From positions 1-64,000 of the forward strand of contig JAPKBR010000015.1 of NCBI GenBank assembly GCA_028823345.1: a stretch of 64,000 nt of DNA, in the 5' to 3' direction. Position 1 is the stretch's first letter; each line of letters starts with the position of its first letter. Source of the stretch: Planctomycetota bacterium. Lineage in GTDB: Bacteria; Planctomycetota; UBA1135; GCA-002686595. The notes under the pieces were generated by a model. That model saw only the letters and a program-made list of their open reading frames with translations. It was not told the origin of the DNA and ran no database searches. Shown piece after piece: positions 43,928-53,212 of this stretch. The position numbers were made by a program, and so were the translations under genes.

Positions 43928-43933
43928 GCAAAA

Positions 43934-43966
43934 CCCCGCTGCCCCCGGGATCCGGGGGCAGCGGGG
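43934..43966 (-). terminator. Hairpin ending the truncated redoxin copy
   Basis: CCCCGCTGCCCCCGG-GAT-CCGGGGGCAGCGGGG; on the minus strand followed by TTTT. Confidence 0.7.
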
Positions 43967-44013
43967 CTGCGGGCAAGAGGTCCTTAGGACCGGGTTCATG
44001 CCCCGAGCTGGGT

Positions 44014-44565
44014 TCAGCGGTTGCCTGCTTCGAGGGCTTTTTCCGCCAGGGGAACAAGTTCCTTGAGGGCCTCGTCGAGGAGATCCCCGCGCAGGGGGTC
44101 CTTATACCGAATGACCCCTTCATGGTCGATCAGGTAAAGGGTCGGCCAACCACTGACGTTCCACTGGGTGGAAATCGGTCCACGGGTGCTGCCGTCGTTC
44201 CAGAAGGAGCGCCAGGTGATCGATTCTTCAATGATGCGTTCTTTTAGGACCTCGCGGTCCTTGTCAGAGTTGACTCCAATGATGGCAAAGGGACGTGAAG
44301 CATATTCACTCACGAGCGACCGCTCGTGTGGGTACATAGCCCGGCAGGGGCCTCACCAGTCGCCCCAAAAGTCCAGCAAGATCACCTTGCCTCGATAGTC
44401 GGACAGCTTGAAGACGACCCCGTCCACGTCCTCGTTCTCGATTTCGGGTACGGTCATGCTGATTTGCAAGTTCCGCATGACGTAGAGCTCGCCCGTGGCT
44501 TTCTTGCTCAATTCCAAACGGCCGTCATAGTGGGTGACATCGCTGTAGTCAGCGATGACTTTTTC
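44014..44565 (-). pseudogene. 5'-truncated copy of the Sec-containing TlpA-like redoxin, with in-frame UGA at 44353-44355
   Basis: Homology to 52100-52651 stops abruptly at 44565; N-terminal signal and helical domain missing. Confidence 0.75.
44311..44328 (-). promoter_or_regulatory. Candidate bacterial SECIS hairpin, truncated copy
   Basis: Same CACGAGC-GGUC-GCUCGUG as 52397-52414. Confidence 0.65.
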
Positions 44566-44567
44566 AG

Positions 44568-44727
44568 ATGCGATCGGCCAGTGGAAGAAGCTTGGCTGCT
44601 GGGCATGGGCGAGCTGTGGCCCTACGCCCTGACATTCGACCAGCGTTCCAAGCGGGTCCGAATCGCCGTGCCAAAGAAAGAGCGGGTGCAGAAGGGAAAG
44701 GAATCCCGCCTGCACCCGCCCGGCTGA
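44568..44727 (+). pseudogene. Possible C-terminal remnant of a retropepsin-like aspartic protease
   Basis: WLLGMGELWPYALTFDQRSKRVRIAVPKKE resembles the GxLGMdxLxxxxxTFDxxxxRLxI tail; no start and no upstream domain. Confidence 0.3.
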
Positions 44728-44736
44728 GTCCTGGAA

Positions 44737-48031: not shown

Positions 48032-51000
48032 CTAGCGCCGTTCTTCTCCTGCTGCAGGCAGTTCTACCTGCTCGGATGTGCGCAGGAACGAGATCAAATC
48101 GAGCACTTCCCTGTCAGCCAATGTATCCAAGAGCCCCGAGGGCATCATCGACAGCGAGTCGACCCGGCGAGACTCGATTTCCGACTTGGGGATCACGACA
48201 TCCTCGGCCTCGCCCGCGATACGCAGGGTCACTTGACTCGGATCTTCGCTGACGAGAATACCGGCGTACATACGACCGTCATCGGTCAAGATCACCAGCA
48301 CCTTGTAGTCATCTTGGATCTCCTCACTGGGATCCAGAACATTGCCCAGAATGTACGTGAGATCCATGCGGTTTGATCCCGTGAGATCGGGGCCCAGTTG
48401 ATGGCCCTCGCCGTACATTGTGTGGCAGGCGGAGCAGGTGCGCTCAAAGACCACTCTGCCGGAATTGGGATTGGCAGCGGCGACCGCCGCGTCCGTGAGC
48501 AGCGCCCGATACTTCTCGATGCCTGCCTGAGTGTCGCTGCTCAATGATTCGACCGAACCCCAAACCTCGACAAAACCCACGCCCACCACATCCCGCAGCT
48601 GACGCACGAGGTAGGCCGGCACATCTCTTTTCTCGACTTCGCCCTCCTCGATCGCTTGGGTCAAGCGATAGCCGTACTTCGAGCGCGAGGCCAGGGTTTG
48701 CACCACGGCAAGGCGCTCATCCGCATTGAAGCCGGAGTAGCGTGCCAGCAGGGCCTCGGCCAGGCTCAGATCCTCGTACGCGGCAACGGCACGGATTGCG
48801 CCCATGCGCATCGCTCCATCGTCGAGCAGCCCGATCAGTTTCGCGGTCAGTTCAGGGTGCTGCACATCCTCCAGGGAGCGCAACGCACTCAAGCGGCTGC
48901 TTGTCTCTGCTTTCTGATCATCGAGTGTCACCAACAGCTGCCGGGCAGCATTACGATCTCCAAATTGCTGGGCGAGCTCGATCGCCAGCCGCTTGGTCGC
49001 GGGATCGTTCATCAGTTCGGCGTGCACGCGTTTCCAATTGGCTGGAGCCTGGGGCTGCTCGCTAGCGCGCAGGCCATCGCGCATTCCTTTCAGCAACAAT
49101 CCGCGCGCGGCTGAAGGCTCTGCCATGCAAGCCACCAAGGCAGTGAGTTCGCCAGCAGCGGTGAGCCTGCGGGCGACCTTGCTTGCGATTTCCGGAATTC
49201 GACTGCCGAGGGCCAGCTGCAACGCTCGGTTGGGATTGCCCGCAAGCATCGGCTCGATTCCGAACCAGATCATCTTGGGAATATTGTGGTCCTTTATATC
49301 CTCGGCGTGGGTCACGAGCCCACTCGCGATGGACCAGCGATCCTCGTGGTCCATGCGTTGCAGTGCTGCGGCGAGGTAGAGCCGGACCACGGGCGAGGGA
49401 TCGCTCTTCGCCATCTCTGCAAAGAGAGGCAATACGGCCGCGGGCGCCCCATCCTCGCACACGAGCTGGATCGACCAAGCGCGCACGTAGGGATCATCGT
49501 CGTCCAAGCTGCTGATCAGGGCAGCCTCGTCCAATCCTCCAGTAATGTGCAGAGCCCACATGGAACGCAGACGCCAACGGGGATCGGCGTCTTTCGAGTG
49601 CAGCCGGCGCAGTTGCCCATGGGTTTCGCTAGCAAGACTGCCATTCGTTGCCCGCTGCTGGAGCAGCACGCGCGCACGCCGTGCGTGCCAAGCACTAGGG
49701 CTCGTCTGCAATTGCACGAGCGCCTCGTCCCCAAGCTTGGCCAGGTCCTGGTAGCGCCCGGGCCAGTCCGCGGCCTGGGACTCCTTGGGTGCGATGCGGT
49801 AGATACGGCCACTCTCCTTGTGCCAAATGTCTTTGCCACAGATGTCCGCATCATGCCAATCGAGCACGAAGACCCCGCCCCCGGGGCCGATCTCCATGCT
49901 GAATCCGATCCATTGGTCGTCGTTCGCCTTCAGGAACTCCGAGCCGTGATGGGCGACAAAACCAGACCCAACGGGCTCCAAGATATCGCTCAGAACTGCG
50001 TGTTCGTGAATGTTGGCCATGAACAGCTGCCCGTGGTACTCCTCAGGAAAAGCGTCCGACAGGTAGATGCTCGCTCCGCCGTGGGCGGATAGGTGTTTGT
50101 GATCGACGATCGTCCGGATGTCGCCGTAAACATAAGGGTTGTAGTGGCTACCACCCTGGCGATGATAGATACCCCCTGGGACGACGTGCCATAGATGGGG
50201 AATGACGCAGGCAGTGATGAAGAGCTGCCCATGTTCGTCGTAGTCGATGCCCCAGGGATTGCTGAAGCCGTGGGCAACCACTTCGAAGCGCTCTTTGGTC
50301 GGGTGATAGCGCCAGACACCCCCGTTGATCGGAGTGCCCGGACCCTCCAATTGGATGTCTTTCGGAAACGGGTCGTCTTTCTTGAACAACTTGCCTGCGC
50401 CTGCCGGCTTGCCGATCAGGGAATGCGTTGCGAAGCCCTCGCAGCCGTAGAGCCAACCGTCTGGCCCCCAGATAAAGCTATTGAGAGTCTCGTGCCGGTC
50501 ACGGATCCCCCAGCCCGTGAGCCTCACTTCAATGGCGTCCATGTCACCACGGTCGTCGCCATCCTGATCGGGAATGAAAAGCAGATTGGGCGGTGCGCCG
50601 AGCCACAGTCCGCCCATGCCAACGGCGATGGCAGCAGGAAAGGGAATGCCCTCGAGGAACACCTTTCGTTTGTCGGCCACACCGTCGTGATCCGTGTCCT
50701 CCAGGATCAGGATGCGACTGTCCCCAAACTTCGAAAAGCCACGGCCGCGAGTTTCGTAGTCCCGGTTTTCCGCGATCCATAGGCGGCCACGGTCATCCCA
50801 GCAGAAGGCCATGGGTTGAGTCATCATGGGCTCCGATGCCCAGACATTGACATCAAATCCACTGGTCAGCGTCATCCTCTCAACAGCTTCCTGGGGCGAG
50901 TGAAAGGTGGGCTGAGGGCCGTCGCGCTGGGCGAGCCGCCACTTGCCCGAGCCGAACTCACGGCCGGTGTAGTCCTCCCAAGAAGAGTTGAGCATGGGAG

Positions 51001-51877
51001 TGTCGAGCTCCCCGGTGTAGACGACGATCCTGTGGCGAATGATCTCGGCTTGGCCTTTCTCGATCGTCCAGTCGCCCAGACGGGCGCGAACCGGGCCAAC
51101 GCCCAAGTTGCCATCGACACGCCAGGGCTGGGGATAACCCTTGTTCTTGTGGTGATCCAGGATGGCGATGTGGCCAGCATCTTCCCGTCCTTCGATCTCC
51201 ATGCCCACGTCCACCCACGGCGCGCGTTGCCCCTCCGCCTCGCGATTTGTCTGGCCGGCGCCATTGGTTGCGGCGCCCTTGATTTTGGGCTTCCACGGCA
51301 TGCGCAGAAAGAGGCCACCGTAGTTGTACTCGCCAACCGTAACGTCGACATTCGCCAGGCCTTTCCAAACCAGGTCGAGGATGTAGCGACCCTTGTCCTC
51401 GCTCATTGTCCATTGCTGAGTCTCGGTCAATATGGCCTGACCCTCTTTCCCAAGCAAGTCGTACTCAATCTCCCAGGAGACCTCGGGGCCCTGTGACTGC
51501 ACGACCTTCGCGGACTTCCGCTGCCAGTAGCCATCTCCAGGATGATGGAAGTAGTCCCGCCCATTGAGCCGCGTGATGCCCCAGTAGAGTCCAGTCTGAT
51601 GCTTGTGGTGACCGGGGCTCAGCTCCGTCAAGACACCCTTGCCATCGGGCGCGTGGATGGGGTGCAAGAAAGGCCGAAAGTCGGGCTGTGCCTCCTGGGT
51701 CAAAACGCTCTCGCCAGATACCGCGCGCAGGATGTGGAGGGCACCCGTCTCTGCATTCTGCTCAATGCGGAAGCCCTCAGAGCCCTGCGCATTGCAGGGA
51801 AGCGCCAGAAGCAGAAACAACGGGCTGGTGCGCAATACGATCGAAAAAGAGAACATTCGTTTTGGGGCCTGGGTCAT
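48032..51877 (-). CDS. DUF6807 (PmoA-like) plus PVC-type dehydrogenase domain plus HEAT-like plus cytochrome c (CxxCH) fusion
   Basis: SPGHHKHQTGLYWG, RDYETRGRGFSKFGDSRILILEDTDHDGVAD, C-terminal CSACHTMYGEGHQLGPDLTGSNR. Confidence 0.88.
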   Translation of the reverse strand: MTQAPKRMFSFSIVLRTSPLFLLLALPCNAQGSEGFRIEQNAETGALHILRAVSGESVLTQEAQPDFRPFLHPIHAPDGKGVLTELSPGHHKHQTGLYWGITRLNGRDYFHHPGDGYWQRKSAKVVQSQGPEVSWEIEYDLLGKEGQAILTETQQWTMSEDKGRYILDLVWKGLANVDVTVGEYNYGGLFLRMPWKPKIKGAATNGAGQTNREAEGQRAPWVDVGMEIEGREDAGHIAILDHHKNKGYPQPWRVDGNLGVGPVRARLGDWTIEKGQAEIIRHRIVVYTGELDTPMLNSSWEDYTGREFGSGKWRLAQRDGPQPTFHSPQEAVERMTLTSGFDVNVWASEPMMTQPMAFCWDDRGRLWIAENRDYETRGRGFSKFGDSRILILEDTDHDGVADKRKVFLEGIPFPAAIAVGMGGLWLGAPPNLLFIPDQDGDDRGDMDAIEVRLTGWGIRDRHETLNSFIWGPDGWLYGCEGFATHSLIGKPAGAGKLFKKDDPFPKDIQLEGPGTPINGGVWRYHPTKERFEVVAHGFSNPWGIDYDEHGQLFITACVIPHLWHVVPGGIYHRQGGSHYNPYVYGDIRTIVDHKHLSAHGGASIYLSDAFPEEYHGQLFMANIHEHAVLSDILEPVGSGFVAHHGSEFLKANDDQWIGFSMEIGPGGGVFVLDWHDADICGKDIWHKESGRIYRIAPKESQAADWPGRYQDLAKLGDEALVQLQTSPSAWHARRARVLLQQRATNGSLASETHGQLRRLHSKDADPRWRLRSMWALHITGGLDEAALISSLDDDDPYVRAWSIQLVCEDGAPAAVLPLFAEMAKSDPSPVVRLYLAAALQRMDHEDRWSIASGLVTHAEDIKDHNIPKMIWFGIEPMLAGNPNRALQLALGSRIPEIASKVARRLTAAGELTALVACMAEPSAARGLLLKGMRDGLRASEQPQAPANWKRVHAELMNDPATKRLAIELAQQFGDRNAARQLLVTLDDQKAETSSRLSALRSLEDVQHPELTAKLIGLLDDGAMRMGAIRAVAAYEDLSLAEALLARYSGFNADERLAVVQTLASRSKYGYRLTQAIEEGEVEKRDVPAYLVRQLRDVVGVGFVEVWGSVESLSSDTQAGIEKYRALLTDAAVAAANPNSGRVVFERTCSACHTMYGEGHQLGPDLTGSNRMDLTYILGNVLDPSEEIQDDYKVLVILTDDGRMYAGILVSEDPSQVTLRIAGEAEDVVIPKSEIESRRVDSLSMMPSGLLDTLADREVLDLISFLRTSEQVELPAAGEERR

Positions 51878-52019
51878 TGATTGGAATGCAGCTGCCAGAG
51901 GCTAGGCCATGGGGGCGAATCCCGCCAACGCAGCTCAGCGCGGACGCCTTTGAACTGGCAAGGAGATGGTTGAGAGCACCGCCGCGTGGTCGCTCGGCCA
52001 ACCATCTTCATGCTCATCA

Positions 52020-52052
52020 CCCCGCTGCCCCCGGGATCCGGGGGCAGCGGGG
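52020..52052 (-). terminator. Hairpin downstream of the full-length Sec redoxin gene
   Basis: CCCCGCTGCCCCCGG-GAT-CCGGGGGCAGCGGGG, same as 43934-43966. Confidence 0.65.
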
Positions 52053-52099
52053 TTGCGGGCAAATGGTCTTTAGGACCGGGTTGATGCCCCGAGCAGGGT

Positions 52100-53212
52100 T
52101 CAGCGGCTGCCTGTTTTGAGGGCTTTTTCCGCTAGGGGAACAAGTTCCTTGAGGGCCTCGTCGAGGAGATCCCCGCGCAGGGGGTCCTTATACCGAATGA
52201 CCCCTTCATGGTCGATCAGGTAAAGGGTCGGCCAACCACTGACGTTCCACTGGGTGGAAATCGGTCCACGGGTGCTGCCGTCGTTCCAGAAGGAGCGCCA
52301 GGTGATCGATTCTTCAATGATGCGTTCTTTTAGGACCTCGCGGTCCTTGTCAGAGTTGACTCCAATGATGGCAAAGGGACGTGAAGCATATTCACTCACG
52401 AGCGACCGCTCGTGTGGGTACATAGCCCGGCAGGGGCCTCACCAGTCGCCCCAAAAGTCCAGCAAGATCACCTTGCCTCGATAGTCGGACAGCTTGAAAG
52501 CGACTCCGTCCACGTCCTCGGCTTCGATCTCAGGTACGGTCATACCGATTTGCAGATTCCGCATGACGTAGAGCTCGCCCGTGGCTTTCTTGCCCAATTC
52601 CAAGCGGCCGTCATAGTGCGTGACATCGCTGTAGTCAGCGATGACCTTTTCCAGCAGCTTCACTCCGCGTTCGCGGGTCAGGGGGTCCTTACCGAGAATG
52701 ATTCCAGCGGACAGGGTCGCGCAGCCCTGCACATCGTGGTGGGGGCTTTTTTCGGCGATGGTCAAGAGACCCGGGACCATTTCCGCGGATCCCCTGCTGA
52801 GGTTCATGGCAACATCCTTGAGCTGCTCGCTTTCGATGTGGTGCTCGGCCAAGAGCGAAAGGGCCTGGGCCGAGGGACTCATGCCTTCCGAGGTGTAGGC
52901 TCGCATGATCCAAGTGAGTGCCTTGAAGGCGCCATCCCCGGCGGGTTCTGTTTCGACGAGGCCGAAGAGGTTCTTCACTGCGTCGTCGGCCGTGGGCCGA
53001 TTTTCGAGGGCGGCTTCACGCCCGGCGTCGTCTTCGGCCGCTCGGTAGGTTGCGACCCAGGTTTCAAAGAGGGTGTCGAAGTTGCTGATTTCCGCCTCCA
53101 CCGCTTCGGTGATGTCGAGACGCATGTTCGCGGACGAGACCAGCAACGGTGGGGGAAGGTGCCCAGGGCTGAAGGTGCCCGTGAAGAAAAGGAGGGGCAG
53201 GGTAAGAATCAT
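52100..53212 (-). CDS. Probable selenoprotein: TlpA/redoxin-like protein with U-G-P-C active site, UGA at 52439-52441 read as Sec
   Basis: ...FKLSDYRGKVILLDFWGDW-[TGA]-GPCRAMYPHERSLVSEYASRPFAIIGVNSDKDRE...; the two track ORFs (52439-53212 and 52100-52423) are in the same frame; SECIS-like hairpin follows. Confidence 0.85.
52397..52414 (-). promoter_or_regulatory. Candidate bacterial SECIS element
   Basis: CACGAGC-GGUC-GCUCGUG: 7-bp stem, GGUC loop starting 31 nt after the UGA. Confidence 0.75.

Follow-up and report, generated by a model that had tools for sequence, protein, structure and literature searches.

On the minus strand of the analyzed 64,000-nt stretch of DNA (the window), the open reading frames 52439–53212 and 52100–52423 lie one after the other, which raises the question of whether they are separate fragments or the two parts of a single gene in which a UGA codon is translated. 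A preliminary description of the locus had proposed a TlpA-like redoxin with selenocysteine (Sec) in place of its first catalytic cysteine. The sequence and the ORF list showed that the two ORFs share one frame, and that the only interruption is a single TGA (52439–52441) followed by GGC CCC TGC CGG GCT ATG, that is, by five sense codons before the next methionine, exactly as had been described. When this TGA is read as Sec, the gene (52100–53212, minus strand) contains 370 codons and a TGA stop, with the ATG at 53212 and a Shine–Dalgarno-like GGAGA upstream. Its translation gives the predicted 370-residue protein, with the sole internal U at position 258 and the gene's own terminal TGA as a normal stop. 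Residue 258 opens the U-G-P-C redox motif, and within W-U-G-P-C it corresponds to the first cysteine of the TlpA/ResA-type WCxxC site, where TlpA, ResA, and DsbE have the first cysteine of CxxC. Because Pfam matches to AhpC-TSA, Redoxin, and Thioredoxin_8 (residues 222–342) extend across the UGA, both ORF pieces belong to one domain. Hence, these comparisons suggest that the two apparent fragments form one intact gene for a redox protein, in which the UGA almost certainly encodes an active-site Sec.

The translation of TGA at residue 258 could also be expected if this codon had been reassigned to Trp, Gly, or Cys throughout the genome. However, 16 of the 35 long ORFs in the window, as well as the selenoprotein gene itself, end in TGA, the tRNA-Sec and the SelA, SelB, and SelD proteins are encoded in the genome (see below), and a codon-usage scan found no other convincing read-through TGA in the window, which makes a reassignment extremely improbable. 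The scan was an insensitive one, because it left the known site outside its best 15.

Conservation of the UGA codon among relatives

The TGA occupies this same codon position in all 30 aligned homologues (best loci), in which the identity of the redoxin domain ranged from 52% to 96%, and such retention indicates that the codon is not there by chance. The motif around the TGA in these 30 loci was DFWGxWU(G/P)PCxxMYxHERSLV. The in-frame TGA was present in each of the roughly 150 top matches listed for 199 relatives. A degenerate DNA pattern of the active site containing TGA was counted at 134 sites in 97 of 395 relative genomes, while the same pattern with TGY (TGT or TGC) had no match in the 395 genomes; the reversed pattern, which served as the control, also gave 0 matches. 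Cysteine at the Sec position, which the preliminary description had suggested looking for, was present in more distant homologues, as WCGPC in a Gemmatimonadetes assembly (L053) and in Pedobacter. The Gemmatimonadetes protein contains FSGQWCGPC and the same downstream signature, and its gene is devoid of the hairpin sequence described below. As is expected of bacterial selenoproteins, the UGA thus occupies a redox-active position that is conserved in homologues, and cysteine is found at this position in other proteins, both in these two and in the PDB alignments. Together with the alignments to ResA, TlpA, and DsbE, the 30 homologues support the earlier placement of the TGA at the catalytic first cysteine.

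The genome containing the window is a draft (3.5 Mb, 102 contigs, 88% complete) and WCGPC would result from a single base change, so that a sequencing or assembly error for TGC or TGT in the gene of an ordinary cysteine redoxin had to be considered. The preliminary description had itself pointed to TGC or TGT at this site as an observation that would speak against Sec. The same TGA recurs, however, in dozens of independent assemblies, which refutes the error at the level of the family, the cysteine pattern was absent from all 395 genomes, and an error would leave no reason for a hairpin conserved at synonymous sites to exist; the probability of this explanation is negligible. The locus could alternatively be a pseudogene, split into two fragments by a genuine nonsense mutation, since the genome otherwise uses TGA as an ordinary stop and carries a truncated second copy of the gene close by. 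Such decay is contradicted by the comparative data, because the conservation of the protein continues without change on the far side of the TGA, at pairwise identities as low as 52% and across many genera, always with TGA, and we regard it as having hardly any likelihood.

The second copy (43933–44565, minus strand) repeats the 3′ half of the gene, with 607 of 633 nt identical (96%). It retains the UGA, the SECIS hairpin, and the downstream palindrome, and about 185 residues are missing at its N-terminal end. Full identity extends over about 309 bp, the ends being more divergent, a pattern that resembles gene conversion, and the copy is best read as a 5′-truncated, conversion-prone duplicate. 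It borders the apparent tail of another gene fragment (44569–44728). The near-perfect G+C-rich palindrome CCCCGCTGCCCCCGGGATCCGGGGGCAGCGGGG, found downstream of both gene copies (52019–52053 and 43933–43967), is terminator-like and has no T run.

The downstream hairpin and the selenocysteine machinery

The mRNA of a bacterial selenoprotein gene is expected to contain a SECIS hairpin (bSECIS), for which the model limits are a loop of 3–9 nt, a stem of 4–16 bp, a G in the first two loop positions, a spacing of 16–37 nt, and a folding energy of −7.5 kcal/mol or lower (PMC13188914). The hairpin CACGAGC-GGTC-GCTCGTG (52397–52414, minus strand), which begins 24 nt past the TGA, falls within these limits; it has a 7-bp stem, a 4-nt loop starting with GG and located 31 nt past the UGA, and a folding energy of −10.5 kcal/mol. 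The hairpin criterion alone is weak, because 8.5% of random TGAs in the window pass the −7.5 kcal/mol limit. Folding energy was likewise not decisive, with 8% of synonymous shuffles folding equally well (p about 0.08), and the case therefore rests on conservation.

Codons +9 to +13 (CAC GAG CGG TCG CTC) were identical in 30 of 30 homologues, while the flanking synonymous sites varied; the same-codon fraction was 1.00 at these codons versus an average of 0.54 elsewhere. In the same homologue genes CGG accounts for 10% of Arg codons and TCG for 17% of Ser codons. The invariance of the five codons, including the rare CGG and TCG, is strong evidence for selection acting on the RNA. The fixation of the sequence is explained by a simple count: of the 3456 ways of spelling HERSLV with synonymous codons, only 32 preserve the inner stem (Watson–Crick) together with the loop G. 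Since it is invariant across the family, the redoxin-gene hairpin offers no covariation of its own. The exact hairpin 17-mer was found in 88 of 161 relatives, as compared to two matches of the reversed control. When the 17-mer occurred outside the strict pattern, 17 of 20 occurrences had a TGA exactly 27 nt upstream and belonged to the same protein family, and the other three were chance-like.

The arrangement is similar to that in E. coli fdhF, where the SECIS is also an in-frame hairpin past the UGA with a GGTC apical loop, although the loop is located 18 nt past the UGA in fdhF and 31 nt here, and the stems differ. No bulged U as in fdhF was identified in the hairpin, and no match to the Rfam SECIS families was obtained for the window at gathering scores or for the UGA region at a relaxed E-value. 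Judged by its conservation, the GGUC-loop hairpin is the predicted SECIS element of the gene.

All four genes on which the preliminary description had made its proposal depend, selA, selB, selC, and selD, were found in the genome. The tRNA-Sec (selC) scored 73.7 bits, above the Rfam cut-off, and has the anticodon TCA, selB scored 342 bits, and selA, selD, and the tRNA-Sec gene are located within about 5 kb of one another on contig C59. The selD gene itself has an in-frame UGA, in the context ...ACAGUAAKM..., and this UGA together with the sel genes leads to the expectation that the genome decodes UGA as Sec. Past the selD UGA comes CTCGCGCA-GGTCT-TGCGCGAG, a GGUC-loop hairpin with the loop at 32 nt and a stem unlike that of the redoxin gene. 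The selD stem covaries among relatives, with 92.9% of cells paired and five cells changed on both sides, and its covariation score of 0.220 compares with 0.092 for shuffled alignments, 0 of 500 shuffles scoring as high. The redoxin gene and selD thus share the loop and the spacing but differ in the stem, which is what a single SelB that reads the two would lead one to expect. More widely, selD of the clade (L018, L089–L116) is a selenoprotein gene in which a GGU-loop hairpin, located about 32 nt past the UGA, covaries. SelA was detected in 149 of 161 relatives, and it was absent from only three hairpin-bearing genomes, which are 56%–78% complete; with SelA nearly universal in the clade, its co-occurrence with the hairpin carries no information.

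UGA redoxin paralogues number up to several per genome, and tandem pairs were observed at L052 and in four genomes (G028:C53, G053:C250, G048:C257, and G093:C200), which points to expansion of the family. The genome containing the window encodes four more redoxins with TGA at the first cysteine (L061, L062, L065, and L066, on contigs C58, C101, C8, and C90), in WUGPC or RUGPC motifs. No SECIS qualified in these four genes when they were scanned simply for perfect stems; they may use bulged stems or another SECIS class.

Protein architecture, relatives, and proposed function

The protein consists of a hydrophobic, signal-like N-terminus (residues 1–31; 53120–53212), an all-helical N-terminal region (residues about 34–219; 52556–53113), and a redoxin, TlpA/ResA-like domain (residues about 222–343; 52184–52549), all encoded on the minus strand. 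The roughly 200-residue helical region of the preliminary description was borne out by a structure model, in which the helices at 34–219, upstream of the redox domain, were predicted with good confidence. The redoxin part of this model was poor, a fold search with the model gave no match at E ≤ 0.001, and the N-terminal region matched no Pfam family. The proposed signal-like N-terminus held only in part, since in the window copy it is hydrophobic and has no charged n-region, and the signal is weak. Clear signal peptides or a lipobox were seen in homologues (L026, L034, L042, and L047), which makes export likely even though the leader of the window copy is atypical, and the protein is probably periplasmic.

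The matches to PF00578 and PF08534 (AhpC-TSA and Redoxin; 61.2 and 53.8 bits) were above the cut-offs and, together with the UGPC motif, agree with the definition of peroxiredoxin-like/redoxin UxxC selenoproteins. No NCBIfam model reached its cut-off on the protein; the scores were 66.5 against a cut-off of 170 bits for ResA (NF002854), 58.7 against 230 for TlpA (NF047696), 48.6 against 123.15 for DsbE (TIGR00385), and 34.2 against 300 for the ResA-like NF041054 (WAxxUGC_long). The last of these shares the ResA-like domain and the active-site Sec, but it has a UGC motif where UGPC is found here. Solved structures of the TlpA, ResA, and DsbE types (2lrn, 1jfu) and ResA chains were aligned across the WxxC site. 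The protein resembles these thiol-disulfide oxidoreductases in its thioredoxin fold, in the aligned WxxC site, and probably in being exported, and differs from them by having Sec instead of cysteine and by scores short of the cut-offs; it would work like ResA, TlpA, and DsbE without being filed as a member of these families. Taken together, the alignments indicate that the locus very probably encodes one apparently exported thioredoxin-fold oxidoreductase of the TlpA/ResA/DsbE type, with Sec as the nucleophilic active-site residue.

The function most in keeping with these relatives would be reductive thiol-disulfide exchange in the periplasm, which we favor with some reserve. A less likely role, that of a peroxidase or of an oxidant sensor in place of a TlpA/ResA-like disulfide reductase, could be inferred from the best Pfam match, AhpC-TSA, and from the existence of UxxC peroxiredoxin-like selenoproteins as a named group (PMC2398784). 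On the other hand, W-U-G-P-C is the thioredoxin/TlpA layout and not the T-x-x-U of Sec peroxiredoxins, and comparisons with NCBIfam and the PDB lead to ResA, TlpA, and DsbE. A role as an isomerase is also conceivable. The gene neighborhood gave no pointer to the substrate; the closest relative retains an adjoining isomerase gene, and near the L052 pair there is a homologue of it. The selenoprotein gene also adjoins the gene (48032–51877, minus strand) of a 1281-residue DUF6807, DUF7133, and HEAT protein with a C-terminal CSACH heme-c-like motif.

In the proposed mechanism of reductive exchange, binding of SelB with its Sec-tRNA(Sec) to the GGUC-loop hairpin, 31 nt downstream of UGA 258, would lead to the insertion of Sec at this codon, whereas translation would still terminate at TGA in other positions, the end of the gene itself among them. 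The protein would then be secreted, with its helical N-terminal region serving to anchor or retain it. The selenolate of Sec258 would attack disulfides (or oxidized cysteines) of periplasmic substrates, and the resulting mixed selenenylsulfide would be resolved by Cys261. Re-reduction by a DsbD/CcdA-type membrane reductase is possible, and a DsbD_TM gene for a DsbD-type protein is present in the genome (contig C1).

A predicted selenoprotein family in uncultured Planctomycetota

Catalogues of thioredoxin-fold selenoproteins with UxxC go back to the Sargasso Sea and GOS surveys (PMC1088965, PMC2398784), a 2026 review includes these proteins in its list (PMC13188914), and selenoproteins in Planctomycetes were reported earlier (PMC4807772). 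The replacement of the first cysteine by Sec, on which the preliminary description had relied, is known from UxxC thioredoxin-like and peroxiredoxin-like proteins (PMC2398784, PMC13188914). With the known peroxiredoxin-like/redoxin members the family described here shares the AhpC-TSA and Redoxin domains, UxxC with Sec for the first cysteine, and an in-frame bSECIS (PMC2398784, PMC13188914). It differs from them in the helical region of about 190 residues that comes first, in the motif DFWGxWUGPCRAMYPHERSL, and in the sequence-fixed SECIS, although this separation is based on published descriptions, so that the family may be among them unnamed. Literature text searches, with supplementary sequence sets outside their scope, retrieved no description of such a Planctomycetota redoxin family. 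The kind of selenoprotein is therefore already known, while the family itself is large and mostly unannotated in uncultured Planctomycetota. It is also possible, though we advance this tentatively, that these redoxins form an obligately Sec-using family centered on Planctomycetota, present as several paralogues per genome and having no cysteine form of its signature motif, in which one stretch of mRNA is constrained twice, by the protein motif HERSL and by a GGUC-loop SECIS that SelB reads, and whose helical N-terminus would define a new family of periplasmic selenoenzymes with a substrate of its own.

The near-invariant 17-nt SECIS provides a simple search handle for these genes, with few false matches, and it is a natural case of a coding RNA element almost fixed by overlapping protein and RNA demands. 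Genes of this type are cut in two by standard annotation, so that in a major uncultured group an entire family of Sec enzymes, with up to several copies per genome, has been missed.
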